Part shown: piece after piece, positions 3 to 21,182 of the stretch | Position numbering within the stretch: position 1 is the stretch's first letter | How the letters are laid out: the number at the start of each line of letters is the position of its first letter | Origin: Streptomyces sp. NBC_00102 | Lineage (GTDB): Bacteria > Actinomycetota > Actinomycetes > Streptomycetales > Streptomycetaceae | DNA length: 64,000 bases | NCBI RefSeq assembly: GCF_026343115.1 | Contig: NZ_JAPEMC010000001.1 | Location: 5,993,001 to 6,057,000 of the forward strand | Direction: 5' to 3' | Made by a program: the position numbers and the translations under genes | The notes under the pieces: generated by a model | Told to the model about the DNA's origin: nothing | Databases searched by the model: none | The model's input: the letters and a program-made list of their open reading frames with translations, nothing else

Positions 3-3000
3 TACGGCCTTACCCCGGCCGATTTCGTCAGCCTCCACCACGCGCCCCGGGCGCCCGGGGCGTCGTTCGAGCGAGTGGTACAGGCCGAAGTCGCCGCGCG
101 CACCGACCGGCTGGTCGCGCTCGACCTCCGGCTGCCCGGCCTCCTGGAAAACGCCTGGTCCGCCGCGTCCGCCTGGCGGTCGAACGCCGCGTTCCTCGAA
201 GCGGGCCTGAATCAGGAACTCCGCCGGGCCGCCGCGCTCCAGAACGAGATCGACGGCCGGGTGGCGCCCGCGCTGGAGCGTCTGTACGACGCGGACAGGG
301 CTCGTACGGTCTCCACGCAGGGCGTCGCATCCCAGCCCGCCGCACCCGAGCCGGATTCGCCCGGGTTCCTGACCCCGATGCCCGAGGATGCACAGCCCGA
401 CGTACTGAGTGGGCGTATCGCCCTGCTGGCGTCGGAACGGGAAGGCATCGAAGCCGACTTGCTCGCCGCGCGGGGGGCGACCCAGGCGTACACCGCGCAG
501 CTCGCCGAAGCGAGTACACGGCACCGAGAGCTGACCGAGGCCGTGGACGCGATCCGCGATCTCGCGCGACAGCGCCCCACTCCCGCCGATCCTGCTCCCG
601 GTTCCGCTTCCGACCCCGCCCCCAATCCGGCCGTCGTCGACCGGGCGGTCGCCTTGGCCACCGCGCTGCCGCTCACGTCCACCGCGCCCGTTCGTCCGGC
701 CTGGCCATGGAAGAGCGAGGTCGCCGTCACCCCGGCCGGCGACGGCACCTCCGCCCCGCAGATCCACCCGCTGCCCGACATGGACGGGCTGGCCACCGGG
801 TTCGAGACGGACCGCCCTTCGCCGTACGGAACCGACCGCCCCGAAGCCCCCGGCGACACCGATCCCACCCCCGGCATGGACGACATCCTTGGGGGCGGCG
901 CCGAGTCCGACGCGCACGTCGGCTACCCGGACCGGCGGTACGTCAACAGCGGTACGGCGAACACCGCGCCGCCGACCGCGGGTCCCGGCACGGCCAGTCC
1001 TGACACGACCGGTCCTGACACCCAGGCCCCCTCCTGGGAGGGGCAGCTGGTGGAGACACTCAGCAGCCGCGCCGACGTCGTCGCGACCGGCGCCTACGCC
1101 GAGCGGCGGTTGAAGAAGGCTCTGGCGGAACTCCGGCTCGGTTCCCGGCTCGCAGGGCAGCGCGACGCGTGGCTGGCTGCCACCACGTCCTCGCTGAACG
1201 CGCTGCCCGCCGAATGGCGCGCGGCGGGCGAGGAGACGGCCTCGGGCCGGGTGCAGTTGCTCCTGTCGCCCGGGGCGCGGCGGGCCGGTTTCGATGTGCT
1301 GATGGAGTCGGTCTGGGCGATCGCCGGCGACGACGAATTCGTCAGGCTGCTGACCACGGACCTGGCCGGAGAGCCGCTGTTCACCCGCCTGTTCGGCATC
1401 GCGACCGGCACGGGCCCGGCGGGCGGCGCGCCCACGAGCCCGGCGGCGCGCATGCTGATGCTCGGTTCCCGGGTGCTCACTCCCTGGAAGGAGTGGGCGC
1501 CGAGTTACCTCCAGGCCGTCACCGCGTGGGCCGTCGGCACCGGCCGGGACACCCTGGCAGAGGTCGTGCGGGCCTGGCAGGAGGTCAAGCCCGCCTCGGC
1601 CGCGCTCGACCACTACTACTTCGACCTCGCCGACCTCGTCGACGCCAACTCCGCCGACCTCGACTCCGCTGCCGTCGACCCGGCCGACGTCGACAGGGTC
1701 GACCTCCAGGACCCCGAGGCGGTGCAAGCATGGGCCTCGGCGGTCTTCGAGCTGCCGGACGAGGCCGACACCGATCCCGAACCTCAGAGCCCCTTGCCCG
1801 GCAACCCCTGGGCGGTCTCCTCCTGGCAGGTCCCCGGCTCCGCCACGGCCGTCAGATTCCGCGGCTTCTACCGCAACCCCCGGTGGGCGCTGCTCACCGC
1901 CCGGTTCGAGCGGGCCGCAGCCGATCGCCATCTCGGCTGGCCCTCCACCCGGCAAGCCGCCCAGCACGCGGTCCGTGCGCTGCTGAAACGCATCGAGGCC
2001 GTCGCGGAAAACCCGCAGGACGCGGCGCTCGCGTTCCTCCCGCCGGAGAAACCGCCGCTCTCGGCGGAGGAGGCCCGGAGCCGGCTCGACCGGCTCCTGG
2101 ACCCTGGAGACGTGGAACCGCTGATGGAAGTGTTCCTTCGCGCCGCGCGCGAGCACCTTCCGGCGGCCTCGCTTCGCCGCCCCGAGGACGACCTCGCCGA
2201 AGTGCTCCGGGAGCGCCCCGCGTCTGCCGTCCGTCACGACGACCGGGGCTTCCGGCACCTGGCCGGACCGGACGGCGTCGCCCGGTACCTGCTGCGGGCC
2301 TACGCCGAGCTGGGCCCGACGCCGGAGGAGCTGCGCTCCTTCACCCGGGCCGTGCTGGGCTGGTCGGTCCGCACCGGCCGCGGCTCGATGTATGAGGTCT
2401 ACCAGGCTTGGAACGAGGTCGGCGGGGACGCCCCGCTCGCCATCGACGCCTCCCGCATGTACCTGTGGGTCGCCGAGAAGGAGAGCACTCAGTTCCAGGT
2501 GTGGGGCCTTCCCCACCCCGCGATCGAGCCGCTGGAACCGCCACAGCACACGCTGTACACCGACATGACCCGCTTTATCGAACGAGTGGACGATGCCGCC
2601 ATGCCCCGCGAGGTCATGGCGGAAATAAGGGAGTTCGCCACGCGGATGGCCAACGGCACCCGGACGGAGGAAGCACCGCTGTCGGCGGGCGAGCTGGATC
2701 CCTTTTCGCCGACCTACGATTCCTCCAGGCTGACCAGGGCGCGGCGGAAACGGATGACGGATTGGCTCGCCCGCCATGGCGTCGCGGACGCGCTGCGGCT
2801 CTCGCGTGTGCCTCTGGTCCATGTGATCGCGCTGAACGTGTACACCAGGTCGGACTACAAGTCCCTCAACGGCTTCACCCGTACCTCCGCCCTGGGCCAC
2901 ACGGTCGGACTCCGTGTGCAGCGCGCGAAACTGTTCTCCAGGGTCTGGCAGGCGTACACCCTGGACGGTGACTTCGACAGCGTGCCGATGACTCTGCGGG

Positions 3001-6000
3001 GCAGCGAGGCGTTCCGCGAGGCGGTCGCGGTGCTTCCGCGGAGGCCGGCCGACCTGGACCCCGGGGCGCAGCTCCGGTTCCAGCGTTCGATGAACCGGAT
3101 CCTTGAGCGCTACCGCGACGAGGTGGCACTGCACGTCGACATGGCCGCCGAGGCCCTCGAATCGCTTCCCTTGGAGAAGGCACACCCTCTCTGGTGGGGA
3201 ACCACAGCCCCGGGCCGCTTCGGGGTCAGGCCGCAGAGCGACCCGGTCTTCGGCCCCGGCACGGTCCACGCCAACGCGTTCCGCAGCACGTCCATCGCGC
3301 CCGGTGTGACCCTGCACTTCTCTGACCTGGACGAGACCGAGGTGGGCCTGAGACACAGCGCCACGGTGCGGGTCGACCGCGCGTCGACCGCGCGCGACAT
3401 ATCGGTCTTCTCCGTCCTTCCGGCGGAGGCCGAGTTCCTGTACACCCCCGGCTCCCAGTTCCGGATGGTCAGCAGGACCAACGACGAGCTCAATCAGATG
3501 GAGGTCATCGAGGCTACCGAGGTGCCCCCCGGCGACCCGGGCCCGGCCGCGGACAGCGGCCCGGTCGCCGCGACCGCCGAGGAATCCTTCTTCACCGACC
3601 CTCAGTGGTTCGTGCTCGGTCTGGAGTATGAACGCGCCCTGGGCAGGAGCTTCGAGGACGACCCGGACGTCCTGGCCGCGGTGCGCCACGCGATCCGTGC
3701 TGTCCTGGACCACGTGAGCGAACACTGGTCCGAGCCCGACGCGCTGATGACCTTCGGACTCGTCGAGCGGCCCAGTGCGCAGGAGGCCGCCCAGGCGAGG
3801 AGGGATCTCACCGGCGACGACTCGCCCCTGGGCGTTCGCGAACTGTTCGATCTCCTGCTGTACGCCACGGCCGACGAGGAGAACACGAGGTCCCTCGCGG
3901 CGCTGTGGAACGCCAGGCCCGAACTGAACCGGGTGCGCGGGGACTACTCGTCCGTGTCGCCGCTCGGCCCGCGCGCCTACTCCACCCGGATGCACGCCAG
4001 CATGGTCCAGGCGGGACGGCGTCCCGGCCTGGGGGAGGCCCCGCACATCTCCTGGCTGTTCGAGGCCGTCGCCGAACTGCCCGGCGTCACCTATCCCGTG
4101 CTGTACGGCCTGCGCAAGGCCGTGCTGGCGTTCGACGCGGCCAGAGGCGGCCACTCCCTCGCCGAGGTGCTCGCCGCCACCCAGGACGTGGGCATCCGCA
4201 CCGACGGCGAGCCGCCGGCACGGACCACCCCTGGCACCGGCCTGTACCAATGGGCCTGGACCGGCCTGGCTACCGGCTCCACCGCCGAGCTGCTCCTTCC
4301 CCATCAGCGTCTCCACCTGCGGGCGGTGTCCTGGATGAGGGCTCCCTGGATCACCGGCGGGACTGCTCACCTTGCCGCCCTGGAGTATGCGACCGGCCTC
4401 CCGGGCGCCGTCACGACGGCCGGGGACCAGGAGATCCTGCCGGTCCCCGGTGCCGCCGACCAGCTGCGGCGGCAGGCTCTGGTGCGGGACGCGCTGGTCC
4501 GGCAGAACCTCTGGTCCGGCCTCAATGCCGCGCATCTGCCCACTCTTCACCTGCTCGGCGGGCCGGACAACGCTCTGATCGCCGGCCGGATGACGGGTGC
4601 GGAGCTGGCCGCGCGGGTCACCGCTCTGTTCGCCGCGCCCGACCGGGTCGCGCGTCTGCCCTTGCTGGTGGCGCGTGACCACCGGATGCGGGCCCTGATG
4701 CGGGGGGCCGACCGGCTGGCCCCTGACGACCACCGGCGCGAGACTCTGCTCGCCCGCCTCGCCGAGCGGGCGGGCGCCCGTGCGGCGGAGCTGTTCGCCG
4801 GTGAGCTGGGCCCGGAGCTCGCCCGGCACCGGTTCATGGCTCGCGAGGCTCTCTCCCTGCTGCCCGCTCTCGACCAGCCCGTGTACTGGACGGCCGACAG
4901 CGCCGAGGAACCCGTCGCCCCCGGTGCCCTCGTTCCGGTCGCCACCTCGCGTGCCGGGGCTCTCGCCGAGCGGGCCGCCGTCCGGCGGCCCGGCGCCCGG
5001 CCGGTGCTCTACGAGTTGTCCCGTTCTTCTGCCCGGAGCATCGCCGCGTTCGCGCCCCTGGACGGGGCGGGCGCGGTCTTCCCCGAGCAGCCGGAACTCA
5101 CCGTCGTGTCCCGGCGTGTCGTCCACGACACGGTGTCCGGGCTGGTCCACGAGCATGTCGTCCTGGAGGAGCGGTCTGCGACCGCGACCGCGTCCGGGAC
5201 CGGTGGCCGGTCCCGGACGTCCGGCACCCCATCGCCCGGGTCACCGGTGGACGCCGCGCACCCCGCGATGCTGGACGACCGGTGGACCGCGGCGAGTGCC
5301 CGATTCGAACGCGAGGCCGGGCAGGCCCTGGTCCGGTACGTGGAGGGCCGCGGGGGTGTGCGGGGCCTGCTCGCCGCGGTCGCCGACCGGTACTCCAATG
5401 ACCGGGCCCGGGACCGCGCGGCGGCGCGTGGTGGCCTGGCCGCGCAGATGCGCCGGATCGCCGAGCTGGTCCAGGATCTGCCGGGTGTTCCCGACTCCCG
5501 GCAGCAGATGTTCGAGGTCCGCGCCCCGCGCGAGCGGGGCATCCTGGTCCGGGGCGGCACGGCACATGTCGCCGCGCAGGTGCGGCAGGCCTTCCTGGAC
5601 ATCAGCGACGGGGAAGCCTCCGGCGACGAGGTCATCGAGCTGGTCCGGGCCGTGGTCGGCTGGCTGCTGTCCGAGGGACAGCACTCGCTGCACGAGATCG
5701 TGCGCGCCGTGATCGGCACCGCATCGGGCGGTGGCGAGGCCCGGAGCGTCCTGCTGGGCAGCGGAGCCGAACTCTACGACTGGACCCACCGCAAGGTGTT
5801 CCCGCAGCAGAGCTACCCCTTCCCCGAACCCCCGCAGAAGCTCCTGTTCGCTCGTGCTGCCCGTGAGGTGGACGCCCGCGACGACGCGCTGTCCCTGGCC
5901 CTGGGGCTGGCCGAGATCACCTTGAGCCCCGAGTCGCCCGCCACACCCACCGCGCCCGACGCGGCCCCGGACGGCGCGCCCGCGACGGCCGACACCGACG

Positions 6001-9000
6001 CGGCCAGGGCCACAGCGGTACGCGCGTGGCAGCTCCGTCACGGCGGCACGTCCTTGATGCGCCATGACGCCCACGAGATGGCGGAACTGTCCAGGCTGAC
6101 CGGACGGTACGCGGACCTGCTGGGCGCGCCCACGGTCGCGGCCTTGCGCGAACGCATCCACGATCTGGTCACCGACGCGATGGCCGACGGACGGCGGGAC
6201 CTGCCCGGCGTCCTGCTGACCGATCCGGCCGTCGCCGACACCGTGGGCCGCGCCGACGAGAGCGGCACGGTCCCCGGCCCGGCCGGGACCCGGGTCCCGG
6301 CCGCCGGCCTGCTGCACCGGCATTTCGACGACGAGCGGGTCGCGGCGCTGCACGGCACGCTGGCCCCGTACGCGTCTGCCGCCACCCGACTGCTGCGTCA
6401 GCAGCCGCAGATCCACGACCGGGTGTGGTGGACCGGATGGCTGCCGGACACCTCGGCGGGGGACGGGCGGGAGCCCGACCGGCTGACCGTCCCACCGTTT
6501 CACCGGGCATGGCGGCGGCTGGAGGGCGTCCAGCGGCGGCCCGAGCCGTCCCGGCCGGGGGAGCCGATGCTGCCCGTGGACCCGGCGGTGCCCGTGCATC
6601 CGGCGGCGGACGTGGACCCGTCAGCGGCCGAGGCGGGGAGTGGCGACACCATCCGCCCGGCGGCGGCCCTGCCGCGCCGCGCCGTCTTCACCGTGGCGCG
6701 GTCCTCTGCGCACGACCTGTCGGTCTACGCGCCCGACCCCACCACCGGGGCGGCGGGCTATCCGGCGGAGACCGAGTTCGAGGTGATCGGCACCAGGGCG
6801 CACGCGGATGCCCTCGGCCCGTACACCTATGTGACGCTCCGGGAGGTCAACCCCCGGGGAACCCGCACGCTCCCCCAGCCGCAGCCGCAGCCGCAGCCTG
6901 CCGCCGCGACTCCGCAGCCTGGCGCCGCGACCGCGCTGCCTGTCCCCGCTCCGCAGGGCTTCGTCTTCACTGCCCGGGTCGTCGCCCGGGAGATCCGCGA
7001 CGAGGAGGGCAACGAGACCGGCCACGCTTACTTCACCGACGAGGAATGGGCGCTGCGCGAGGAGCCCTACCGCGAGCTCGGAACGCTGGAGACCTACGCC
7101 CGGTGGCGGCGCGGGCCTGGCGATTCCGCGACGTACGAGCGGTGGCTGCTGCCCGCCACCACGGCCACCGGCACTTACTTCTACGCCGCCCACGGCACCC
7201 CGGGCGGCGGCCTACTCGACGACCAGGGCGTGGATGACGGCACCCGTGCCGGACAGCGGCTGAGGGAGCGGAAGGCGCTGCTGGGCTTCTCCAGCGTCAT
7301 GGTGATGCGCTGTTACGTACCCGGCGAACAGCCCCGCCCGGACACCATGTCCGAGGAGGAACTGGTCCGCTTCGGGGCCCGCGTCGCCACCCAGGTGGAG
7401 GCGGACGTGTTCATCTGGCGGGGCCATGGCGCGGTGACCCCGAGGACGCCCCAGTACCCGGTCACGATGCACATCCTGGAGGACGGCCTCGGAAGGCCCA
7501 CCGGGTGGTTGCGCGTCCGGCACGGCACGGCGGGCGGAGGAGACCCCCGGGGCGGGCGCCCGCGCGTCTCCGAGCTCACCGACGAGGTGCCGCTCCCGTA
7601 CCCCGACAGGTCCCTGCACAACGCCGCCGGCGCCGGGCGGACCACCCTCGCCGGCGGCGCGGTGCAGCCGGGCGGGGACGCGGAGAGCCGGATCACGGTG
7701 AGTGACATCGTGGGCCCGGACGGCGCGCTGGTGGGCCGGGACGTGTTCTCGGCGCGCGGCAGGGCCTGGCGGGCGGGGAGCCACGAGGGGCTGCCGCTGG
7801 TGACCCACTACGTCGAGTGGCGGACCGGCCCCAGCGGCGAGCGGATCGCGCGGTGGGTGGCGATGCCGGAGACCAGCGCCACGGGGACGTTCTACCTCGC
7901 CGCGCTCGGAGTCCCGGGCGGCGGCGTCCTGCTGGACGGCGGTGCCGACGACGGCACCCGGTTGGCGGAGGTGCTCGCGGACGTGGCGGGGCGCGGATTC
8001 CGCAGCATCACCCTGCTGACCGGCCAGGACGGAACCCCGCGGTCGGCGGCCGGGATGGCGGCGCTGGCGCGGCGTGTCGCCGACGCGACGGGCCTGCCAG
8101 TGCTGTATCCCCTCGGGGACAGCGCGGTGCTCGGCGACCCCGCCACCGAGATCCATCTCCTGGAGAACGACGCGGGCTGGCCCACCATGTGGGTGAAGGC
8201 GACACCGGGTTCGGACGGCGGCGGGTGGACCTACCCGCCGAGGACGGAGCAGGTGTCCCCGGACGCGGCAGACGGCAACCCGTGGGCGGTGCCGGGCTGG
8301 CAGCCGCCCGGCTCGGCCCGGGCGGTCCGGTTCGCCTCGTTCTACCGCGACGCGCGGTGGCGGGAGGACTCCCTGAGCTTTGAACTGACCCTCGGCGAAC
8401 GGCTGAACGCCGACCCCGAGGCACGGAGTGCCGCGCGAGCCGCCCTGAACACCCTGCACCGCTTCCACGTCCGCCTGCTCGGCCAGGAACGCGCCGGAGA
8501 CCTCCTGCGCCGGGCCACCAGCCGGTCGCTGGTGCCGGGCGCCGCCTCCGCCGTCACCACCCAGCTGGTCGACGTATTCGCCGATCTCGCGATGGGCCGT
8601 GCCACCGTACCGCTGTGGCGGCTGTACCCCGCCGCCTTCTCCGCCGACGCGCACACCTACGCGCGGCCGGCGCCGCCCCTCCAGGAGCGGCGCGGGCACC
8701 TGCACGATACGGCCGGTCTGCGGGTGGCCGGTCCCGTCGACGGTCCGGCGATGTGGGTGCTGCAGGCGTACCGGGCCCTGGGCGCGAGCGACGAGCAACT
8801 GCTCGCCCTGCGGCCGGCGGTGCTGGCGTGGAGCATCCATCACGACGTCAACTCGCTTCCGGAGGTGCTGCGCGCCTCCCATCTGCTGGGCCTGGGCGAC
8901 CCGGAGGAACGTGCCTCCCTGCGGGACGGCTCCCGGCTCCACCGGTGGACATCCCTCACGGTGATGCCTGACGTCGTGCCCCCGCACCAGACGCTGTACG

Positions 9001-10754
9001 AGACCCGCACCGAGTCCCTCACCGAGGGCCCCTGGCTGGACGCCGACTACTCCTGCGCCTTCACCACGCCCGCCGCGATCCACGCCTCCCTGGTCGGGAT
9101 CAGGGACAACATCCGCGTGGGCGGCGGCGTCCGGCAGCGGGCCATCGCGCAGTGGCTCGCCGACTACGACGAAGCCCCGGCAGCCGCCCGGCAGTTGCGT
9201 ATCGGTCACCTGACGGCGATCTTCCTCTACACCGTGGAGGGCGATTCCGCTCTCTACCGGCAATACGTGAACAACAGCCGGTTCGGCGCTCGCTTCAGGG
9301 ACTTCATGATGCGCCAGATGATCTGGCGCCAGCTGGCCCCGCTGAGGACCGCCGACGAGGACGAGATCGGAATCGATGTCGCGGTACAGATCATCAACGC
9401 GGGCAACAGCCTGTACTGGAGCTTCGACCGCGTGACGGAGCTGCTGAGGGGAGAGGCCGACGGAGACCTCCGGGAAGTCGTCCCGGCCCTCGCCCGACGC
9501 GTCACGGACGATCTGGAGCTGCACGTCAGCATGCTGGCCGAGGCGCTGGACATCCTTCCGCCGATGGGGCACTCGGTGGCGTGGGGCAACTGGATGCCCG
9601 GCTCGGTGGACGCGCCCGCCCGGGGAGTCCTGCTGACCGAGGACAGCATGTCCCAGCCGCGCTTCCGGAGCACCAGCGAGGACGAGATGACGGCGGTGAG
9701 CTTCATCCCCGGAGTCCCCCGGGCGGAGAGCGCCGAGCGGCACCCGATGATCGCGCGTGTCCGGGAATCGTCCGGCCGTGAGATCTCCCCGTTCTCCAAC
9801 CTGATCGAGGAGCAGGAAATCCTCTACGAGCCTCGGGTGTTCCGCCTGGTGTCGCACCGGCCGCACGTCGTCGATGGCCGGGCACGCGTCGACTACACCC
9901 TTGAGGAACTGCCGGACTACCCCGACGAACGCCTGCGCAACGCGGGTGGTCCGCCGTACGCGGGTCCCGCCGCGGACGGGGCCGCGGGTGCTGCGGACGA
10001 GGGGGGACGCCGGACCGGCCCGGTCGCGGTCCCATCGGCTCCGGACGCATCGGCTCCGGACGCATCGGCTCCGGTCCCACCCGTTCCGGCCGTACCGGAA
10101 CCGGCTGTACCGGAACCGGCCGCCGTGCCGCTCCGGGCTCTGCCGGTGTTCGCTCGTACGGCGGACTCCGCCGGACTGTTCGACGGCGAGCCGGTTCTCC
10201 TGGGGCGGGCCGGGGAGGGCGGTGCCGGGTTTGTCGCGAGCCTGGCCGAGGCTGTGCGGAGCTCCGTGCCCGCCGCGCTCGACCACGTCGGCGGCACCGG
10301 CCCGGACGCCTTCGAGCGGTGGCTCACCGACCGTCTGACGGACGAGGACCTCCCCGTCGGTGCCCTGGTCCGCCCCGGGGGCGACACACGGTTCAGGCTC
10401 GGTGACCTGGAGGACGCCGGAGTCGTCCTCGCTCCGGGCCAGTGGGCCCAAGCACAGCTCATGGGCGGTGAACTCCCGCTCGGTGGCCTGGGATTGAGCC
10501 AAGCTGCGCTGTTCCGTCTGGCGCTGCGGAACCCGTCCGTGCTGTGGACCGGCACCCCGGAGCAGATCGAGTGGGCCCTTGCCGCCGTCGCCGCGCGGGA
10601 GCTGGGCGTGGCCATCGCCCTTGCCCGGTACGGCGCCGAGGGCCTGCGGCTCGGTGACGGGACGGCGGGCATCGTCCGTATCGTCAGCCGTCCCGGAGAA
10701 GGGGACACCCACGTCTACCGACCGGTGATCCCGGCCCCGCGCCCCCGCCACTGA
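3..10754 (+). CDS. Giant T7SS-associated multidomain protein with ART-like repeats and caspase-like domains (5' partial)
   Basis: The frame is open to the left edge, so the true start is upstream; the GTG at 75 is only the first start-like codon. More than 3,570 residues are visible. An N-terminal helical region (about 75-600) is followed by Pro/Asp-rich linker. Repeat units begin near 1803, 3590, 5265 and 8275. Each has an FYR/FxxxxW opener, a helical segment with a G-x-x-SL-x-EVL-like motif, and an ART-like tail. Units 1 and 4 keep FRSTS (3279, 9663) and ExEFLY/ExEILY-type motifs (about 3423, 9808). In all four, Trp occupies the position expected for the catalytic Arg. Between units 3 and 4 lie two copies of a caspase-like domain (about 6960-7610, 7680-8230). 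It resembles very large Streptomyces proteins that I recall being annotated as lonely Cys domain proteins. The T7SS link comes from the next gene. Effector, toxin or scaffold are all possible; activity is unproven. Confidence 0.85.
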   Translation, partial: YGLTPADFVSLHHAPRAPGASFERVVQAEVAARTDRLVALDLRLPGLLENAWSAASAWRSNAAFLEAGLNQELRRAAALQNEIDGRVAPALERLYDADRARTVSTQGVASQPAAPEPDSPGFLTPMPEDAQPDVLSGRIALLASEREGIEADLLAARGATQAYTAQLAEASTRHRELTEAVDAIRDLARQRPTPADPAPGSASDPAPNPAVVDRAVALATALPLTSTAPVRPAWPWKSEVAVTPAGDGTSAPQIHPLPDMDGLATGFETDRPSPYGTDRPEAPGDTDPTPGMDDILGGGAESDAHVGYPDRRYVNSGTANTAPPTAGPGTASPDTTGPDTQAPSWEGQLVETLSSRADVVATGAYAERRLKKALAELRLGSRLAGQRDAWLAATTSSLNALPAEWRAAGEETASGRVQLLLSPGARRAGFDVLMESVWAIAGDDEFVRLLTTDLAGEPLFTRLFGIATGTGPAGGAPTSPAARMLMLGSRVLTPWKEWAPSYLQAVTAWAVGTGRDTLAEVVRAWQEVKPASAALDHYYFDLADLVDANSADLDSAAVDPADVDRVDLQDPEAVQAWASAVFELPDEADTDPEPQSPLPGNPWAVSSWQVPGSATAVRFRGFYRNPRWALLTARFERAAADRHLGWPSTRQAAQHAVRALLKRIEAVAENPQDAALAFLPPEKPPLSAEEARSRLDRLLDPGDVEPLMEVFLRAAREHLPAASLRRPEDDLAEVLRERPASAVRHDDRGFRHLAGPDGVARYLLRAYAELGPTPEELRSFTRAVLGWSVRTGRGSMYEVYQAWNEVGGDAPLAIDASRMYLWVAEKESTQFQVWGLPHPAIEPLEPPQHTLYTDMTRFIERVDDAAMPREVMAEIREFATRMANGTRTEEAPLSAGELDPFSPTYDSSRLTRARRKRMTDWLARHGVADALRLSRVPLVHVIALNVYTRSDYKSLNGFTRTSALGHTVGLRVQRAKLFSRVWQAYTLDGDFDSVPMTLRGSEAFREAVAVLPRRPADLDPGAQLRFQRSMNRILERYRDEVALHVDMAAEALESLPLEKAHPLWWGTTAPGRFGVRPQSDPVFGPGTVHANAFRSTSIAPGVTLHFSDLDETEVGLRHSATVRVDRASTARDISVFSVLPAEAEFLYTPGSQFRMVSRTNDELNQMEVIEATEVPPGDPGPAADSGPVAATAEESFFTDPQWFVLGLEYERALGRSFEDDPDVLAAVRHAIRAVLDHVSEHWSEPDALMTFGLVERPSAQEAAQARRDLTGDDSPLGVRELFDLLLYATADEENTRSLAALWNARPELNRVRGDYSSVSPLGPRAYSTRMHASMVQAGRRPGLGEAPHISWLFEAVAELPGVTYPVLYGLRKAVLAFDAARGGHSLAEVLAATQDVGIRTDGEPPARTTPGTGLYQWAWTGLATGSTAELLLPHQRLHLRAVSWMRAPWITGGTAHLAALEYATGLPGAVTTAGDQEILPVPGAADQLRRQALVRDALVRQNLWSGLNAAHLPTLHLLGGPDNALIAGRMTGAELAARVTALFAAPDRVARLPLLVARDHRMRALMRGADRLAPDDHRRETLLARLAERAGARAAELFAGELGPELARHRFMAREALSLLPALDQPVYWTADSAEEPVAPGALVPVATSRAGALAERAAVRRPGARPVLYELSRSSARSIAAFAPLDGAGAVFPEQPELTVVSRRVVHDTVSGLVHEHVVLEERSATATASGTGGRSRTSGTPSPGSPVDAAHPAMLDDRWTAASARFEREAGQALVRYVEGRGGVRGLLAAVADRYSNDRARDRAAARGGLAAQMRRIAELVQDLPGVPDSRQQMFEVRAPRERGILVRGGTAHVAAQVRQAFLDISDGEASGDEVIELVRAVVGWLLSEGQHSLHEIVRAVIGTASGGGEARSVLLGSGAELYDWTHRKVFPQQSYPFPEPPQKLLFARAAREVDARDDALSLALGLAEITLSPESPATPTAPDAAPDGAPATADTDAARATAVRAWQLRHGGTSLMRHDAHEMAELSRLTGRYADLLGAPTVAALRERIHDLVTDAMADGRRDLPGVLLTDPAVADTVGRADESGTVPGPAGTRVPAAGLLHRHFDDERVAALHGTLAPYASAATRLLRQQPQIHDRVWWTGWLPDTSAGDGREPDRLTVPPFHRAWRRLEGVQRRPEPSRPGEPMLPVDPAVPVHPAADVDPSAAEAGSGDTIRPAAALPRRAVFTVARSSAHDLSVYAPDPTTGAAGYPAETEFEVIGTRAHADALGPYTYVTLREVNPRGTRTLPQPQPQPQPAAATPQPGAATALPVPAPQGFVFTARVVAREIRDEEGNETGHAYFTDEEWALREEPYRELGTLETYARWRRGPGDSATYERWLLPATTATGTYFYAAHGTPGGGLLDDQGVDDGTRAGQRLRERKALLGFSSVMVMRCYVPGEQPRPDTMSEEELVRFGARVATQVEADVFIWRGHGAVTPRTPQYPVTMHILEDGLGRPTGWLRVRHGTAGGGDPRGGRPRVSELTDEVPLPYPDRSLHNAAGAGRTTLAGGAVQPGGDAESRITVSDIVGPDGALVGRDVFSARGRAWRAGSHEGLPLVTHYVEWRTGPSGERIARWVAMPETSATGTFYLAALGVPGGGVLLDGGADDGTRLAEVLADVAGRGFRSITLLTGQDGTPRSAAGMAALARRVADATGLPVLYPLGDSAVLGDPATEIHLLENDAGWPTMWVKATPGSDGGGWTYPPRTEQVSPDAADGNPWAVPGWQPPGSARAVRFASFYRDARWREDSLSFELTLGERLNADPEARSAARAALNTLHRFHVRLLGQERAGDLLRRATSRSLVPGAASAVTTQLVDVFADLAMGRATVPLWRLYPAAFSADAHTYARPAPPLQERRGHLHDTAGLRVAGPVDGPAMWVLQAYRALGASDEQLLALRPAVLAWSIHHDVNSLPEVLRASHLLGLGDPEERASLRDGSRLHRWTSLTVMPDVVPPHQTLYETRTESLTEGPWLDADYSCAFTTPAAIHASLVGIRDNIRVGGGVRQRAIAQWLADYDEAPAAARQLRIGHLTAIFLYTVEGDSALYRQYVNNSRFGARFRDFMMRQMIWRQLAPLRTADEDEIGIDVAVQIINAGNSLYWSFDRVTELLRGEADGDLREVVPALARRVTDDLELHVSMLAEALDILPPMGHSVAWGNWMPGSVDAPARGVLLTEDSMSQPRFRSTSEDEMTAVSFIPGVPRAESAERHPMIARVRESSGREISPFSNLIEEQEILYEPRVFRLVSHRPHVVDGRARVDYTLEELPDYPDERLRNAGGPPYAGPAADGAAGAADEGGRRTGPVAVPSAPDASAPDASAPVPPVPAVPEPAVPEPAAVPLRALPVFARTADSAGLFDGEPVLLGRAGEGGAGFVASLAEAVRSSVPAALDHVGGTGPDAFERWLTDRLTDEDLPVGALVRPGGDTRFRLGDLEDAGVVLAPGQWAQAQLMGGELPLGGLGLSQAALFRLALRNPSVLWTGTPEQIEWALAAVAARELGVAIALARYGAEGLRLGDGTAGIVRIVSRPGEGDTHVYRPVIPAPRPRH

Positions 10755-10833: not shown

Positions 10834-11844
10834 ATGGCTGAGGACGAAGACAGCCGACGCGAGGAGCGGCCCGGCGACGCGGCCGAAGGTGCGGCGGACA
10901 GCGTCGCCGGAGGCGATGGAGAGGGCGGTGACGGCGGCGTGGACAGCGCCGCCGGGGGTGATGGAGCGGGCGGTGGCGTGGAGGGGATGCCGCCGGTGCC
11001 GCCCGAGATCCGGGAGGCGGCCCGGCTCGCCCCGGGCAACCTGATCGGTGTCATGGACCCCGCCTGGTCGGCCGAGGGTGACCCGCCGGACTGGGCGCTG
11101 GTGGGCCAGTGGCGCTCCGGCTCGGGCGGCGAGATCGAGGACTGGTACCCGAACCCCGCCTACCGCCCCTCGCCCGAGGCCATGGGCTGGCCCGACCCCA
11201 CGGACGAGATCGACCGGGCCGTACAGCTCGCCGCGACCGGCTACGGCCCCGCCGAGGACATCCCGCGCACCCTGGTCGCGGCGGCGGAAGTGGCCGTACT
11301 GATCCGGTACGACGGCACCCTGTGCTCCGCGACCGCACCGGACGGACAGGCCGTTGTCCCGCTCTACACCTCGCCGCCGCAACTGGAGATGGGCGGACGC
11401 TTCGGCTACGAGCTGATGACGGTACGGGACATCATGGACCTCCTGCCCGAACGGCACGCGCTCTACCTGAACCCGGCGGGCGCGGTCGGCATGACGGTCG
11501 AGCCCGAGGCGGTGCGTGCGGAACTCTCCGCCGTGCGGTCCGGGGACGAGTCGGTGACCGTCCCTGGCTGGGAGGACGCCGGTGCGGAGGGGGTCGGCGT
11601 GAGCGAAACCCACGCGGACGCCGACGCCGACGCGCACACCGGAGGCGGGACCCCGCCGTTCGAGGACGTCCACCTTCCGTCCCGGCCCCTCACCATGAGT
11701 GGCCCCGTCATGCCACGGGTACGGCCCGAGCCGCTGGAGGGCCTGGCGCCCTCCGCGTCCGGCACGGCGGCCGAGCGCCCGGCCGGGGAGACGGCACCGG
11801 CCTCGGTCGAACCGGCGCCCGCCGAATCCGCGAGCGGGACGTGA
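10834..11844 (+). CDS. Type VII secretion system-associated protein
   Basis: This 336-residue protein starts at ATG with GAGGA 3 nt upstream, 79 nt after the giant gene. It has an acidic, Gly-rich N-terminus (1-50). The core at about 65-220 contains WYPNPAYRPSPEAMGWPDP, QLAATGYGPAEDIP and LPERHALYLNPAG, the pattern of the SseB-like T7SS-associated family found in Streptomyces ecc loci. The C-terminus (about 240-336) is Pro/Ala/Glu-rich and looks disordered. There is no signal peptide or membrane segment, so it is likely cytoplasmic, perhaps a chaperone or adaptor for the neighbouring large proteins. Its stop overlaps the next start by 4 nt (GTGA), which implies translational coupling. Family assignment is fairly sure; the role is inferred. 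Confidence 0.85.
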   Translation: MAEDEDSRREERPGDAAEGAADSVAGGDGEGGDGGVDSAAGGDGAGGGVEGMPPVPPEIREAARLAPGNLIGVMDPAWSAEGDPPDWALVGQWRSGSGGEIEDWYPNPAYRPSPEAMGWPDPTDEIDRAVQLAATGYGPAEDIPRTLVAAAEVAVLIRYDGTLCSATAPDGQAVVPLYTSPPQLEMGGRFGYELMTVRDIMDLLPERHALYLNPAGAVGMTVEPEAVRAELSAVRSGDESVTVPGWEDAGAEGVGVSETHADADADAHTGGGTPPFEDVHLPSRPLTMSGPVMPRVRPEPLEGLAPSASGTAAERPAGETAPASVEPAPAESASGT

Positions 11845-14800
11845 GCTGGTCGATCGGGGCCGCGTCGAGGCTCGTACGGAACCCGAGGCGCCGCGCGAAC
11901 CGATCGGGCGGCCCGGAGGGCGAACCCTCAGTGGCGCCGCTGACCGTGCGGGCGGCCGGAGACGTCCTGGTCATCCACGAGGACACCGGGACCCCCGGCC
12001 GGGCCGGCACTCCCGGCCGGGAGGACGTCCCCAGCTGGGACGGCGCGTCCCCCGGGGACGGCACGGCACCGCCGCACAGCGCGCTGAGCGCCGACCCCGA
12101 CACCGTGACGCTGATGGTGACGGCCCCCGGCCACCCCGACCTCTGGCCCTCCCTCGCCGAGGTGCTGGACGCCGTGTGCGAGGCGGAGTACACCGCCGTA
12201 CGGCTGGTCCTGTCCGAGGCGGGCGCCGCGGTGGGCCGCCGTCCGCCGCGGGCCCAGCACATCGCCGACACCTGGGGCATCGATGTGATCGCTCCCGTCG
12301 GGACCGTACTCGTCCACTCCGACGGCTCGCTGTTCGCCAGGGGCGCCGGCCCGGACCATCCGCACGGAGGCCGGGGCGGGCAGCAGCCGGCCGCGGGCTG
12401 GTGGCGGTTCACCCCGGACGGCGAGCCGACCCCGGGCGGCTTCCGTGCGCCGGCGCCCGCTTGGGAGGCGGAGATCTCGGCGCTGCCCGCGACGACCGGT
12501 CGCGGATGCGTGATCGAGCAGGTCCCGGCCGGTGTGATGCTCGCTCCCGGCCCGGACATCGCGCCCACCGCCGCCGAGATCGGCCACGCGGTGCCCGCCG
12601 ATCCGCACCGCCCGGCCGTGCTGATCGCTGCCGGACGGACCGGTTCGCACCCGCCGTCCCGGGAGGTCGCGAGCCTGCTGACCACCCTGTCCGCGCCGCT
12701 CCGCACGGTGATACGGCTCGCCCCGCTCGGTTCGGCCGACCTGCTGCCCCTCGCCCAGGACGTGGCCGACCTGATGGGCGCGGAGGTGGAGGTGATGACG
12801 GCGGCGCCGCTGTACACCCGGCACGACGGGCCGGGCTCCGTCGCCCGGCCCGTACTTTTGGGCCCCGGCCACACTCCGACCTGGCGCCCCTTCGTCGAGT
12901 CCCTGATCTGCCGCCCCGCCGCCGACCCCGAGGCACTGACCTGGCCCGCTCCTCGGCTGGGTGCCTGGCATGCCCCCGTGCCCGAGCTGGAATCCGGGCC
13001 GCGGCCCGGCTCGGTCCGGATGCCGGGCGGCTGGCAGGCGGCGGTGACCCGTTCGGGTCTGACGCTGACGGCGCGGGGTGGCGCGGTACCCCTCGGTACG
13101 CCGCCGCCCGATCCGCTGCGCATGGTGATCGACTTCGGCGAGCCGGGCGAGGAACTGGGCGACGCGGCGCTGTCGGCGCTCTACCGCCTGGTCATGGAGA
13201 TGGACGAGGACGTCCGCGTGCACACGGTCCTGCGGGTACGGGGCCGGTGCGCCGACGGAGGGGTACGGCTGCGGCGCTTCGCGGTCCGGCACGGAGTGGC
13301 GTTCCTGCCCGCGGGGCGGGAGAGCCTGCCCGCGGAGCGGCAGTCCGGGGCGGGCGGTCCGTACGCCGGGCTGGGCAGTCCGGCCGCTGCTGCCGCCTCG
13401 TCCCCGGCGGAGCTCGGGGAGGTCCTTGAACATGAAACGGCGCCGTCGGCGCCGTCGGCGCCGTCAGCTCCGTCAGTGTCACCCCTGTCACCCCTGCCGT
13501 CCCGGGTATCAGTGCCGTCAGTGCCGTCAGTGCCGTCAGTGCCGTCAGTGCCGTCAGTGCCGTCAGTGCCGTCCGCGCTGGTTCAGCCGCTGTGGCAGGC
13601 GCCCTCACTGCACCTGACGCAACCGGACCGGCCGGAGCGCCCGGCCTTCGGCGACGGCGACATCGAGGGCCGCCACGGTGCCGGCCCGTCGGAGCTCGAC
13701 GAGGTTCCGCCGGGATTTCGGCCCTTGCCGACGGCGGCGGGACCGACGGCCGGACCGGCCATGCGGCCGACGTCACGTCAGGAGGCCGCGCCCGCCCCCG
13801 GTCAGGAGGGCGAAGCGCTCGGCACCTCGCCGATGTGGGACGGCCCCTACGCGGAACCGGAACCGGCCGTACCCGTGCCTCCGGCGGGCCCCACGACACC
13901 CGTGCCCGAGCAGCGCACGTCGTGGCCCGCGCCCCCGGAACCCCTGGGCCGGCCGGATTCCGGCCCCGACACGGACGCCCCCGCGCCCCGCCGGGAACCG
14001 GGCCCGCTCCCGCCCCTCCCGGCCCCCGGCCCGCCGGCGCCCCGGCCCGCCCCGGAGCCCGCCTCCGGCGCGGCCGAGCGGCCCGATGCCCGTACGACCC
14101 GTACCGCGCCCGACCCGGCCGAGCGGCCCAACGCCCGCACGAACAGCCCCGCGTCCGACGTGACCGCCCTCAGCGCCGCGCCGCTGCCCTTCACCACGAC
14201 GCACCGCAGCACGGACGCCGAGCGGCAGGCGTTCCGTGTCCTCGCGGGCGAACACTGGCAGGGGCAGTACCAGGCCGTCGTACGTGCCCTCTCCCGCCTC
14301 CCGGCGCTGCGGAACACCGACCAGGAGGCCATGCGCGCCGACCTCGCGGCCACCCGCCTCTGTCTCACCGCCGAGGAGGGCAGCATGTTCCATCACACGG
14401 CACTGAGGCGTTCCCTGCGCTTGGGCGACGGCGAACTCCTGCCCTACGCGCTCTGCCTGGTCTCGGGGCTGCGCCATCTCCCCGCGTACCGGGGCGTGGT
14501 GGTGCGCGGCGGCCCGCCGACGGTTCCGCTGCCGGAGCCCGGCCAGGTCCTGCGTGCCGGCGGGCCGGTGAGTGCGCTGCCCCAGGGCAGCGGCGTGCCG
14601 GGAGTGCGGTACGCGATCTGGTCGTCGACAGCCCGCCGCGTACGTTCACTCCTGGACTCCGCCCCCGGCCCCGCATCGGCAAAGGCCGCCCGCGACGAGC
14701 TGGTCTTCGCTCCGGGCACCGAGTTCGGGGTGCTGGAGATACGCGGCAAGGGGGCGAGTCCGCTCGTACTTATACGTGAACTGGGCTCCGGAGAGCGGGC

Positions 14801-14933
14801 GTTGACGGAGGAGCGGAGAAAGGAGCAGGACCGCACGGCACTCGACCGGCTGACGAGCGCGCTGGACCAGGACACCCCGAAGCCGGACCGGCCGGGCTCC
14901 TGGCCGGACCGGTGTGCGGGACCGCTTCCGTAG
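11841..14933 (+). CDS. T7SS-linked large protein with C-terminal ADP-ribosyltransferase-like domain
   Basis: I chose the GTG at 11841, overlapping the upstream stop by 4 nt, although the frame is open further back; this gives 1030 residues. Residues 1-500 form a mixed alpha/beta region rich in repeated hydrophobic strands that I do not recognise. Residues about 500-750 are a Pro/Ser/Ala linker with a VPS repeat. The C-terminal 260 residues look like an ART fold: an alpha-helical lead-in, YRGVVVRG near 14484, WSST near 14619, and RDELVFAPGTEF near 14691. Unlike the giant protein, the Arg of the R-S-E triad is present; the usual ExE reads RxE, keeping only the last Glu. It ends in a charged tail. 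It is probably a T7SS substrate or effector. No immunity gene is recognisable downstream. Confidence 0.75.
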   Translation: MSWSIGAASRLVRNPRRRANRSGGPEGEPSVAPLTVRAAGDVLVIHEDTGTPGRAGTPGREDVPSWDGASPGDGTAPPHSALSADPDTVTLMVTAPGHPDLWPSLAEVLDAVCEAEYTAVRLVLSEAGAAVGRRPPRAQHIADTWGIDVIAPVGTVLVHSDGSLFARGAGPDHPHGGRGGQQPAAGWWRFTPDGEPTPGGFRAPAPAWEAEISALPATTGRGCVIEQVPAGVMLAPGPDIAPTAAEIGHAVPADPHRPAVLIAAGRTGSHPPSREVASLLTTLSAPLRTVIRLAPLGSADLLPLAQDVADLMGAEVEVMTAAPLYTRHDGPGSVARPVLLGPGHTPTWRPFVESLICRPAADPEALTWPAPRLGAWHAPVPELESGPRPGSVRMPGGWQAAVTRSGLTLTARGGAVPLGTPPPDPLRMVIDFGEPGEELGDAALSALYRLVMEMDEDVRVHTVLRVRGRCADGGVRLRRFAVRHGVAFLPAGRESLPAERQSGAGGPYAGLGSPAAAAASSPAELGEVLEHETAPSAPSAPSAPSVSPLSPLPSRVSVPSVPSVPSVPSVPSVPSVPSALVQPLWQAPSLHLTQPDRPERPAFGDGDIEGRHGAGPSELDEVPPGFRPLPTAAGPTAGPAMRPTSRQEAAPAPGQEGEALGTSPMWDGPYAEPEPAVPVPPAGPTTPVPEQRTSWPAPPEPLGRPDSGPDTDAPAPRREPGPLPPLPAPGPPAPRPAPEPASGAAERPDARTTRTAPDPAERPNARTNSPASDVTALSAAPLPFTTTHRSTDAERQAFRVLAGEHWQGQYQAVVRALSRLPALRNTDQEAMRADLAATRLCLTAEEGSMFHHTALRRSLRLGDGELLPYALCLVSGLRHLPAYRGVVVRGGPPTVPLPEPGQVLRAGGPVSALPQGSGVPGVRYAIWSSTARRVRSLLDSAPGPASAKAARDELVFAPGTEFGVLEIRGKGASPLVLIRELGSGERALTEERRKEQDRTALDRLTSALDQDTPKPDRPGSWPDRCAGPLP
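13511..13573 (+). repeat. 9-bp tandem repeat inside CDS, 7 perfect copies
   Basis: Seven exact copies of AGTGCCGTC encode a Val-Pro-Ser repeat in the linker of the 1030-residue ART-like protein. A looser GCGCCGTCG/GCTCCGTCA stretch precedes it from about 13440. Because the unit is 9 bp, copy-number slippage would lengthen or shorten the linker without breaking the frame. Confidence 0.95.
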
Positions 14934-15211: not shown

Positions 15212-16555
15212 TCAGCACCCCGCCACAGGCGAAGGCGACGTGCTCCACGTGTACTTGGCCGCCTCGTCGACATCCCCGGCCGCGACCAGCGCAACCGACC
15301 CGGTGTTCCAGCCGGTGACGTACTTCCCGAATGTCTTGCTCGTGAGGGTCACGGCGCATCCGCCGGCATCCGGTACCCGCCAGAGCTGGCCCGGATCCTC
15401 GGTGGTGCAGGGCGAGACGTACATGGACTCGCCGTCGGTGTCCAGGCACATCGAGGCCGACGTGGACCGCAGCAGGAACACCCCGTCCCCGGCCGGCTGC
15501 CTCTGCCAGCCGCCCGTACCGCAGGTGTCCTGGACGACCACGCGCTCGGCGCCCACCGCCAGGCACTTGCCCGAATGGGCATTGCGCACGCGGCGCGTCG
15601 TCGTCTCCCCGGACGCGGCATCGCCGCTGTCCTCGGCCGGTGCGGGGTCGTGCGCCGCCGCGGCGGCGGCCTTCTCCTCGGCTGCGGTCCGGCCCGTACC
15701 GCCGTCCTCGCTCGTCCCGTCCGCGGCACCCGCGTCGCCCGCCTGCGTATCCGTGCCGGGCGCGGCCTTCTTGGCGCCGCCCCGCTCGTCCGCGTCCGGC
15801 GACTCGTCGGCCGCCGGGCCGGCGGTGGCATCCGGCTCGTCGCCGGCGGGCTGCCCGCCGTCGAAGTAGTCGTCGTCGCCCACAGGGGAGACCTCGGACG
15901 CGGCCGTGGCGGTGGCGCGGTCCTCGTCGCCGCCCGTGTTCATCAGCAGCAGCGGCACACCCAGCAGCACGACGCCGGTCAGCGCCACCGCGGCCATCAC
16001 CCGCTTGCGCCGCCGTCTCCCGCCGCCTTCCTCGCCGTCGCCTTCCTCGCCGTCGCTGTCGTGGCCGTCCCGCCCGGAGCCCCCGGTGCCGTCCGGACGC
16101 CCGAAGAGGGAGAACTCCGGCCCGGAACCCGGCGCGGAGCCCCCTCGGTCGGGGCCGCCGGATCCCACCGCATCGGACGACCCGCCCGCGCCCGACCCGC
16201 CCGCGCGGGCCGCCCGGGCCGCGCGCTGCCACCGCCCCCGCGTGCCGGTCTCCTCGTCGACGGCCCACGGCGCTCTGGTCCAGGGGATCTCCGCCGCCAG
16301 GGACGCGATGGCCGCGTCCGGCTCGGCGGTCCCGGCCGCCGTCCCGGCGCCCGGCGCGGACTCCTCGGCCGACGTCCCGGAACCGGACTCCCCGCCGTCC
16401 CGCGACCGCCCCGAGGCCCCGTCCAGCGCGGCTTCGGCGATCGAACCGCCGGTGGCGCCGCGGCGGCGGGGGAGAGAGGGGAGGCGAGAAGCGGGCCGTT
16501 CCTCGGTATCGGGCTGGGGGCGGCCGTCGTCGCGGGCCTCGGCTTCAGGGAACAC
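15212..16555 (-). CDS. Membrane-anchored ricin-type beta-trefoil lectin domain protein
   Basis: The frame runs back to a GTG at 16699, but I favour the GTG at 16555. It has GGAG 5 nt upstream and the following sequence reads like a normal Glu/Arg/Pro-rich cytosolic N-terminus, giving 447 residues. A basic stretch RRRKR precedes a single hydrophobic segment (VMAAVALTGVVLLGVPLLLM) near the middle, then an Asp/Ala-rich extracellular linker. The last 120 residues contain NAHSGKCLAV, CLDTDG and LWRV motifs with paired cysteines, typical of one RICIN beta-trefoil. It probably displays a carbohydrate-binding domain outside the cell. It is divergent from the ATPase gene at 16788, with which it may work. 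The ligand is unknown. Confidence 0.75.
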   Translation of the reverse strand: MFPEAEARDDGRPQPDTEERPASRLPSLPRRRGATGGSIAEAALDGASGRSRDGGESGSGTSAEESAPGAGTAAGTAEPDAAIASLAAEIPWTRAPWAVDEETGTRGRWQRAARAARAGGSGAGGSSDAVGSGGPDRGGSAPGSGPEFSLFGRPDGTGGSGRDGHDSDGEEGDGEEGGGRRRRKRVMAAVALTGVVLLGVPLLLMNTGGDEDRATATAASEVSPVGDDDYFDGGQPAGDEPDATAGPAADESPDADERGGAKKAAPGTDTQAGDAGAADGTSEDGGTGRTAAEEKAAAAAAHDPAPAEDSGDAASGETTTRRVRNAHSGKCLAVGAERVVVQDTCGTGGWQRQPAGDGVFLLRSTSASMCLDTDGESMYVSPCTTEDPGQLWRVPDAGGCAVTLTSKTFGKYVTGWNTGSVALVAAGDVDEAAKYTWSTSPSPVAGC

Positions 16556-19414: not shown

Positions 19415-19795
19415 TCAGAAGAAGTACCAGTAGGCGGTGGACTTGTAGCCGGCGGTGGCGATGTTGGCCTGGTACCAGGCGCGGCCGAGGAGCACCTGGC
19501 CGCCGTCGTCGTACTCCAGGTAGATGTCGACCGCGTGCTGGCCGTCCATCTTGATCGGTATGCACTGACCGGGGAGGACGATCACCGTGGACAGACCGGA
19601 GAGGCCGGAGGCCGCCTCCGCCGCCGTCGGGACGTACTGGGCGAACGACTTGTACGTGCCGTAGGAGCAGAACTTGTACGTGCCGTTGGTGCCGTTGGCG
19701 CTGGCGGTCGTGGCGGTCAGGCCGAGGGTGAGGCCCGCCATGGCCAGCGCGGTGCCGCCCCACTGGAGCAGCTTGCGCCGCGTGGTTCTCATCAT
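19415..19795 (-). CDS. Small secreted protein, array copy 4
   Basis: This 126-residue protein has a signal peptide with TRRKLLQ followed by a hydrophobic core and an ASA cleavage site near residue 33; the twin Arg suggests possible Tat export. The mature part of about 93 residues has two cysteines (KFCSYGTY, LPGQC), a VDIYLEYDDGG strand, GRAWYQANIATAGYKS and a terminal YWYFF. It is the last gene in a row of four paralogues on this strand, 59 nt after copy 3. I do not recognise the family. A small disulfide-bonded beta domain released outside the cell is likely. Confidence 0.8.
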   Translation of the reverse strand: MMRTTRRKLLQWGGTALAMAGLTLGLTATTASANGTNGTYKFCSYGTYKSFAQYVPTAAEAASGLSGLSTVIVLPGQCIPIKMDGQHAVDIYLEYDDGGQVLLGRAWYQANIATAGYKSTAYWYFF

Positions 19796-19854
19796 GAACG
19801 TGAACTACCTTCCGGTGGCAGGACTTTCGCGTGCGGGTGCGGACCCGGTCAGGG

Positions 19855-20229
19855 TCAGAAGAAGTACCAGTTGGCGGTGGACTTGTAGCCGGCGGTGGCG
19901 ATGTTGGCCTGGTACCAGGCGCGGCCGAGCAGCTTCTCGCCGCCGTCGTCGTAGCGCAGGAAGATGTCGACCGGACTGGCGTCCCGGTAGATGGAGACGC
20001 ACTGGCCGGGCATGGCCAGGACCTTCCTGCCGATGAACCCCTGAGCGGCCTCTGCGTCGGTGACGACGGTCTGGACGACCGAGACGTAGGTGCCGCGGGC
20101 GCAGAACTGGTACCAGCCGTCAGTGCCGTTGGCGCTGGCGGTCGTGGTGGTCAGGCCGAGGGTGAGGCCCGCCATGGCGAGCGTGGTGGCGCTCCACTGG
20201 AGCAGCTTGCGCCGCGAGGTCTTCGTCAT
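19855..20229 (-). CDS. Small secreted protein, array copy 3
   Basis: This 124-residue paralogue has the same architecture: SRRKLLQ, a hydrophobic core, ASA, two cysteines (QFCARGTY, MPGQC), a VDIFLRYDDGG strand, GRAWYQANIATAGYKS and a terminal NWYFF. It differs most in the middle (SVVQTVVTDAEAAQGF), so the variable part lies between the two cysteines. It is 58 nt after copy 2. The intergenic sequence, including the leader TAGTTCACGTTC before the ATG, is also duplicated. Confidence 0.8.
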   Translation of the reverse strand: MTKTSRRKLLQWSATTLAMAGLTLGLTTTTASANGTDGWYQFCARGTYVSVVQTVVTDAEAAQGFIGRKVLAMPGQCVSIYRDASPVDIFLRYDDGGEKLLGRAWYQANIATAGYKSTANWYFF

Positions 20230-20287
20230 GAACGTGAACTACTTTCGTTGGTGGGCTGTTGGCGTGCGGGTGCGGACCCGGTCAGGG

Positions 20288-20668
20288 TCAGAAGAAGTAC
20301 CAGTAGGCGGTGGACTTGTAGCCGGCGGTGGCGATGTTGGCCTGGTACCAGGCGCGGCCGAGCAGCTTCACGCCGCCGTCGTCGTACTCCAGGTAGATGT
20401 CGACCGCGTGCTGGCCGTCCATCCTGATCGATGCGCAATGGCCGGGGAGGACGAGCGCCGTGGACATGCCGCCGACGCCGGAGGCCGCCTCCGCCGCCGT
20501 GGGGACGTACCGGGCGAACGACGTGTACGTGCCGCGGGCGCAGAACTTGTACGTGCCGTTGGTGCCGTTGGCGCTGGCGGTCGTGGTGGTCAGGCCGAGG
20601 GTGAGGCCCGCCATGGCCAGCGCGGTGCCGCCCCACTGGAGCAGCTTGCGCCGAGTGGTCTTCGTCAT
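20288..20668 (-). CDS. Small secreted protein, array copy 2
   Basis: This 126-residue paralogue is closest to copy 4. Signal peptide TRRKLLQ is followed by ASANGTNGTYKFC, PTAAEAASG, LPGHC, VDIYLEYDDGG and terminal YWYFF. GGAAGG lies 12 nt before the ATG. It is 55 nt after copy 1. High nucleotide identity to copy 4 across gene and spacer points to recent duplication or gene conversion. Confidence 0.8.
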   Translation of the reverse strand: MTKTTRRKLLQWGGTALAMAGLTLGLTTTTASANGTNGTYKFCARGTYTSFARYVPTAAEAASGVGGMSTALVLPGHCASIRMDGQHAVDIYLEYDDGGVKLLGRAWYQANIATAGYKSTAYWYFF

Positions 20669-20723
20669 GAACGTGAACTACCTTCCGGTGGTGAGATTAT
20701 TTGCGTGTGCGGACCCGGTCAGG

Positions 20724-21182
20724 TCAGAAGAAGTACCAGGAGGGACTGGACTTGTAGCCGGCGGTGGCGATGTTGGCCTGGTACCAGGCGCGGCCGAGGT
20801 TGACCTGGCCGCCGTCGTCGTACTGGAGGTAGACGTCGACCGGGTTGCCGTCCATGTAGATCGGGACGCACTTGCCGGGATAGGCGATGAAGGTCCGCAT
20901 GGGGGAGGCCGGGGAAGTGAGCGAACCGGCGACACTGGAGGTTGAGGTGCTGGAGCCCCCTCCGGTCACGCGCGCCCCGACGAAGCCGGTGAGGTACGAC
21001 GCGTTGGTGTTGCCTTCGACGACGTATTCGGCGAACGCCTTGTAGGTGCCGCGCGAGCAGAGCTGGTACCAGCCGTTGGTGCCGTTGGCGCTGGCGGTCG
21101 TGGTGGTCAGGCCGAGGGTGAGGCCGGCCATGGCGAGCGCTGTGGCTCCCCACCGCAGGAGCTTGTGCCGCTTCGACTTCAT
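20724..21182 (-). CDS. Small secreted protein, array copy 1 (long form)
   Basis: The first and longest paralogue has 152 residues. Its signal peptide has KRHKLLRWG instead of RRKLL, so the twin Arg is lost and Sec export is more likely. The mature part keeps LCSRGTY, YPGKC, VDVYLQYDDGG, GRAWYQANIATAGYKS and terminal SWYFF. It carries about 27 extra residues, rich in Gly/Ser/Thr, between the cysteines. It begins the four-gene unit, so the promoter should lie in 21183-21668. Confidence 0.8.
   Translation of the reverse strand: MKSKRHKLLRWGATALAMAGLTLGLTTTTASANGTNGWYQLCSRGTYKAFAEYVVEGNTNASYLTGFVGARVTGGGSSTSTSSVAGSLTSPASPMRTFIAYPGKCVPIYMDGNPVDVYLQYDDGGQVNLGRAWYQANIATAGYKSSPSWYFF

Follow-up and report, generated by a model that had tools for sequence, protein, structure and literature searches.

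The 64,000-nucleotide window analysed here (G000:C1:5993001-6057000, from Streptomyces sp. NBC_00102) opens inside a giant gene whose product carries repeated domains related to ADP-ribosyltransferases (ARTs), each with tryptophan in place of the first-strand arginine of the R-S-E ARTs. The continuous frame recorded there in a first-pass annotation is present on the forward strand and represents the C-terminal half of a single gene with a total open frame of 7,528 codons. The most likely start is a predicted Met codon at L006:3318 (= C1:5981318), because a second WXG100_2 protein encoded upstream opens with identical residues; the product would comprise about 7,478 amino acids. Its N terminus matches WXG100_2 (PF25547; 35.9 bits, cut-off 27) and in this respect resembles WXG100-like substrates of type VII secretion systems (T7SS). 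A Pro/Thr-rich stretch follows, and then two long repeats with the same module order that are 63% identical across about 2,280 residues. The initial observation on four units is thus part of a wider one, as the gene extends upstream and encodes seven units, every one with Trp: A1, B1 and C1 upstream of the window, and A2, B2, C2 and D (units 1 to 4) inside it. B1 and B2 are not independent copies because both fall within 1,370 bases of identical DNA (window 4251-5620; L006:11511-12880), while other aligned stretches of the two halves are 69-83% identical. Recent gene conversion may explain this identity, an assembly slip being less likely. Within the repeat family of the giant, the nearest named relatives are from Streptomyces.

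Table 1. Features of the giant gene and its surroundings (window positions)
Feature	Position	Strand	Remarks
Giant gene, C-terminal 3,583 codons	3..10754	+	Continuous open frame; start upstream of window
Unit 1, whole (helical first half and ART domain)	1788..3572	+	Structure modelled
Unit 1 (A2), ART core	2742..3524	+	Trp codon 3195-3197; FRSTS from 3279; E-A-E 3426-3434
Unit 2 (B2), ART-like core	4515..5171	+	Trp codon 4887-4889; no STS, no E-x-E; profile E 3.9e-17
Unit 3 (C2), ART-like core	6000..6857	+	Trp codon 6429-6431; no STS, no E-x-E; weak profile E 5.6e-6
H...C repeat domain, first copy (between units 3 and 4)	6939..7508	+	His and Cys retained
H...C repeat domain, second copy	7650..8282	+	Both residues lost
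Unit 4 (D), ART core	9132..9908	+	Trp codon 9582-9584; FRSTS from 9663; E-Q-E 9810-9818
SseB-domain protein gene, next downstream of giant	10834..11844	+	PF07179, 36.3 bits (cut-off 21)
Companion gene, start uncertain	11931..14933	+	C-terminal ART-fold domain about 14271-14876; first-strand Arg retained
Ricin-B-type lectin domain protein	15212-15997	-	Beside the locus of the giant
Four tandem small proteins	19415-21182	-	Near-identical signal-peptide-like starts

All four units inside the window contain the ART-like segment that had been proposed, and their first-strand sites read LWWG, VYWT, VWWT and VAWG in units 1 to 4, as first described. Measured against the features of the R-S-E clade, the units have the ART fold, but Trp replaces the first-strand arom-R Arg in seven of seven; STS together with [QE]-x-E is found in units 1 (E-A-E) and 4 (E-Q-E), both with FRSTS, and is missing from units 2 and 3, again in agreement with the annotation. 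The units share an ART fold devoid of the arom-R Arg with XopAI-like pseudo-ARTs.

Assignment to the ART fold is backed by more than motifs. Pfam and NCBIfam scans of the giant gave borderline ART matches at most, unit 1 scoring 23.4 bits against PF03496 at a cut-off of 23.4. When nine units were combined into a profile, it matched Vis, XopAI and Tre1 (6dre/6drh), all of them ARTs with crystal structures, with E-values from 3.7e-7 to 2.2e-6, the Trp aligning opposite the Arg of Vis, and the predicted structure of unit 1 shows an ART fold; structure prediction and remote-homology profiles, suggested earlier as checks, thus both bear out the assignment. An independent profile, built without units 2 and 3 but including four Ser/Glu-less units of genome G069, recovers unit 2 and matches unit 3 weakly, across the last quarter of the profile (E-values in Table 1). 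Chance matching of motifs was ruled out by the profile match, the unit 1 model and the conservation described below. The idea that misalignment hides an Arg beside the Trp was likewise rejected, as the tabulated rows are free of Arg from LP to Trp +1. Among 8,000 scored candidates, no protein of about 165-525 amino acids carrying the repeat domain was found at E 0.001.

The Trp is widely conserved. A first survey aligned 79 rows, three of them cut short of the relevant column; it covers roughly 17 genomes once records that apparently represent one contig are merged, the rows including the apparent duplicates L029/G126, L032/G203 and L037/G178. Trp occupies the Arg site in all 76 units spanning the column, which substantiates the claim of a shared, non-random Arg-to-Trp change, and it is fixed in units whose identity to unit 1 is 21-50%. 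The preceding position is variable (54 W, 18 Y, 2 A, 1 S, 1 G); 58/75 units keep the catalytic Ser, and 58/75 the last Glu. With a single-sequence query, family matches were obtained in 5/246 sampled genomes of the genus; wider searches detected the family in 18/293 genomes of the order and 16/345 of the class (our genome being counted in all three samples) and reached relatives that bear Arg at the site. From 157 matches, 130 units with the column present and more than 150 aligned columns were kept: 103 with Trp, 19 Arg, 3 Pro, 2 Val, 1 His, 1 Phe and 1 Ile. Removal of identical rows left 112 (85 W, 19 R, 3 P, 2 V, 1 H, 1 F, 1 I), of which 86 remained under 85% identity. Both Ser and Glu are retained in 19/19 Arg units and 3/3 Pro units and are absent from the five units with Val, His, Phe or Ile; Trp units have both in 73 cases, neither in 27 and one of them in 3, assignments in degenerate units being dependent on the alignment. 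No listed locus combines Arg and Trp units. A second deviation from R-S-E occurs at L086, L087 and L090, from another genus of the order, where Pro takes the Arg site and Ser and Glu seem to be retained. ART-like units also occur in open frames of 17,018 (G069, L058-L061), 18,430 (G023, L132) and 19,677 codons (G394, L130 and L131) in Streptomyces-group genomes.

The class of proteins to which the giant belongs is already known. Actinobacterial giants that combine several toxin domains have been described, for example SACTE_5178 with three ARTs, which the survey of Zhang et al. (2012) lists with the R-S-E ART toxin domains (available text of PMC3482391). SACTE_5178 (gi 345002682, Streptomyces sp. 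SirexAA-E; 13,652 aa) is likewise giant and multi-domain and belongs to the same repeat family, with three units compared with seven in our protein. In the SirexAA-E record, three family matches were found, all within one 13,652-aa open frame and 3/3 with Trp; these correspond to the three ARTs of SACTE_5178, and hence the domain family itself is not new. The missing Arg is not mentioned in the available text of the survey. Thus, the domains were filed among R-S-E ART toxins although they lack the residue that names the class, and treating them as pseudo-ARTs, both in annotation and in proposals on the function of these giants, seems advisable until they are assayed. What is new is the Trp variant fixed throughout the family, the relatives that bear Arg and the amended view of the published assignment; the accessible portions of the literature on pseudo-ARTs, T7SS and giant proteins yielded no description of Trp at this ART site.

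Three known systems help to place the units. Vis of Vibrio splendidus (4xzj), an active R-S-E ART, has R117 where our units carry Trp; according to the portion of PMC3000352 available, R117 is assigned to the NAD phosphate and N76 to the adenine phosphate. The nearest precedent for the Trp units is XopAI of Xanthomonas (6k93, 6k94, 6kly), which is reported in the accessible text of PMC6829252 to have an ART fold without this Arg, not to bind NAD and to hold an Arg-containing peptide in its cleft. XopAI has FTG at the Arg site and AAS at STS, whereas our units have Trp and, in units 1 and 4, an intact STS; moreover, it is a single type III effector domain, whereas our units are repeated within a giant. 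Finally, the Streptomyces giant of G394 (19,677-codon frame) belongs to the same repeat family, but 7/7 of its units keep Arg, Ser and Glu, unlike ours. Such Arg-bearing giants are natural controls for the Trp series.

The Trp is accompanied by further changes. In 32/33 units that combine Trp with Ser and Glu (Trp-Ser-Glu units), the residue before the catalytic Ser is Arg, compared with 0/18 Arg units, which makes this the sharpest column difference between the two groups after the Trp itself (Fisher p 7e-13, a descriptive value that ignores relatedness). Ser and both Glu are present in 33/33 of these units; among the remaining Trp units, His precedes the Ser site in 16/28. An earlier column has Asn in 9/9 near Arg units as opposed to Lys/Arg in 30/30 units of the larger Trp-Ser-Glu group, while three A-type units, including our unit 1, retain the Asn and nine far Arg units have a gap. 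From the motif pattern, not from alignment, this Asn may be equated with the adenine-phosphate Asn N76 of Vis. Additional columns differ between the two groups, e.g. Ser1128 and Glu1050. Taken at the level of sequence, the changes look coordinated and appear to map to the cleft's phosphate side, where they may either create a new site or make up for the missing Arg.

The order of events was addressed with a tree of 86 units from which the motif columns had been excluded (quick search, no bootstrap). The seven residue states require six changes on this tree, the minimum possible; Trp requires three, consistent with one gain and two losses. In the best tree, one side of a branch holds every Trp row together with the V, I, F and H offshoots, so that a single origin of Trp is favoured but not shown. 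Nearly all Ser/Glu-less units fall into one clade (32 rows, SH-aLRT 99) nested among the Trp-Ser-Glu units, and for this reason a constraint placing all Trp-Ser-Glu units in one clade is rejected (p 0.0016). Arg was therefore lost first, and Ser and Glu later and only in part.

We favour, with a probability of roughly 55%, the view that the gene encodes a T7SS-linked giant of repeated modules in which an ART domain was converted, probably once, to a pseudo-ART with ligand-binding or structural roles. Most likely, the Trp units represent pseudo-ARTs that kept the fold and lost the NAD Arg, with a cleft conserved in some and reduced in others; the repeat domains probably serve for binding or as building modules rather than as working enzymes, and judged by their residues the units are unlikely to function as ARTs. 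Repurposing is favoured for units 1 and 4 because Trp outlasts Ser and Glu, because Arg-bearing relatives exist and because 73/103 Trp units keep both residues. The preference for repurposing over decay expressed in the first-pass annotation therefore stands for these two units; it does not extend to units 2 and 3, which have lost the catalytic Ser and E-x-E. Several points weigh against the favoured view. Retention of Ser and E-x-E in those 73 units would fit a still-working enzyme too, the branch that unites the Trp rows has a support of 73.6 only, and peptide binding by units 1 and 4 would be argued from analogy. Furthermore, Trp is not indispensable everywhere, as V, I, F or H replaces it in 5/130 units, and the Arg gained directly before the catalytic Ser could substitute for the lost one, the kind of case that the first-pass annotation named as refuting its reading.

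This last point leads to a reading in which the ART was rewired and stayed active: the phosphate-binding Arg would have left the first strand and now precede the catalytic Ser, and NAD chemistry would persist in units 1 and 4, assisted by the Lys found in many units where Arg units have Asn. The distribution of Arg and Lys/Arg and the invariant Ser and Glu residues of the Trp-Ser-Glu units speak for it, and migrated catalytic residues are known from other pseudoenzymes (available text of PMC10211241, a review that also covers pseudo-ARTs). We nevertheless consider it doubtful, since adjacent strand residues point to opposite sides and the gained Arg thus likely faces away from the cleft; moreover, its gain is one co-inherited event without repetition, and units 2 and 3 are left unexplained. 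An ART active site of a new kind, composed of first-strand Trp, Arg before the catalytic Ser and Glu, with the Arg for the NAD phosphate relocated to the STS strand, is about as doubtful; if true, it would mean a working rewired enzyme in several copies per megadalton exported protein. Equally doubtful is that Trp serves as a stacking surface for some other small ligand bound in the cleft, for instance a wall fragment, a nucleotide or a nucleotide sugar. Conservation of Ser, Glu and Trp in the cleft and the gain of basic residues are compatible with this, but the ligand is putative and Trp is kept also by units devoid of Ser and Glu.

Plain decay, which would make the units toxin-domain leftovers inside a large, loosely constrained protein, could explain the loss of Ser and Glu from units 2 and 3 and the occasional replacement of Trp. 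It is unlikely in view of the Trp being fixed despite the low identity of many units to unit 1 and conserved above the catalytic columns, contrary to what decay would lead one to expect; in addition, the columns with Arg before Ser and with Asn/Lys changed in a correlated manner, and frames of about 4,300 to 17,000 codons remain open, some of them ending at contig ends. Least credible is that the units are ordinary R-S-E ART toxin domains: fold, STS and E-x-E of units 1 and 4 and the published assignment agree with it, but the defining Arg is missing from all seven units of our protein and all three of SACTE_5178.

How the favoured pseudo-ART might work can be sketched as follows. An ancestral ADP-ribosyltransferase domain would have become a pseudo-ART, probably in one event, with Trp filling part of the NAD cleft so that NAD would no longer be bound in the usual manner. 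What is left of the cleft in units 1 and 4, with its Ser and E-x-E, may hold a protein or peptide ligand as in XopAI, whose ligand-binding ART fold appears to be the best analogy, while units 2 and 3 may serve as structural or recognition repeats. The graded series Arg-Ser-Glu, Trp-Ser-Glu and Trp alone would then illustrate how an enzyme fold turns into a binding or building repeat. Any ADP-ribosylation by the locus would more likely be due to the companion protein, which kept the Arg.

The best profile match of the companion's ART domain among solved structures is XopAI (3.2e-12), from which it differs by retention of the Arg; its other ART motifs are altered too, and its profile matches that of the Trp units weakly (probability 62.8). 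Three further matches to this domain lie on G000 contigs 2 and 3. The giant itself is probably exported. A nearby protein scores 170 bits with the mycosin model (cut-off 279), and a nearby AAA+ protein exceeds the cut-offs of three models, EccA, SpoVK and CbbX. The nearest EccC gene is about 50 kb from the giant; five EccC genes score above the model cut-off in G000 (contigs 1-3).

Elsewhere in the giant, the profile of the H...C repeats gave a best E of only 0.47 against solved structures, and general Pfam scans, made with no separate model run aimed at these domains, found no lethal-factor-like peptidase, caspase or MCF1-SHE domain. The two halves of the giant (P0001 and P0002) have no match to the lonely Cys model NF012197 at E up to 1, whereas the relative P0007 matches it with 965.6 bits (cut-off 200); a literature search for 'lonely Cys' proteins gave no paper. 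The second H...C copy, without His and Cys, is perhaps another pseudoenzyme within the same protein. By eye, proteins whose start resembles that of the Ricin-B-type protein flank the companion in several other genomes.
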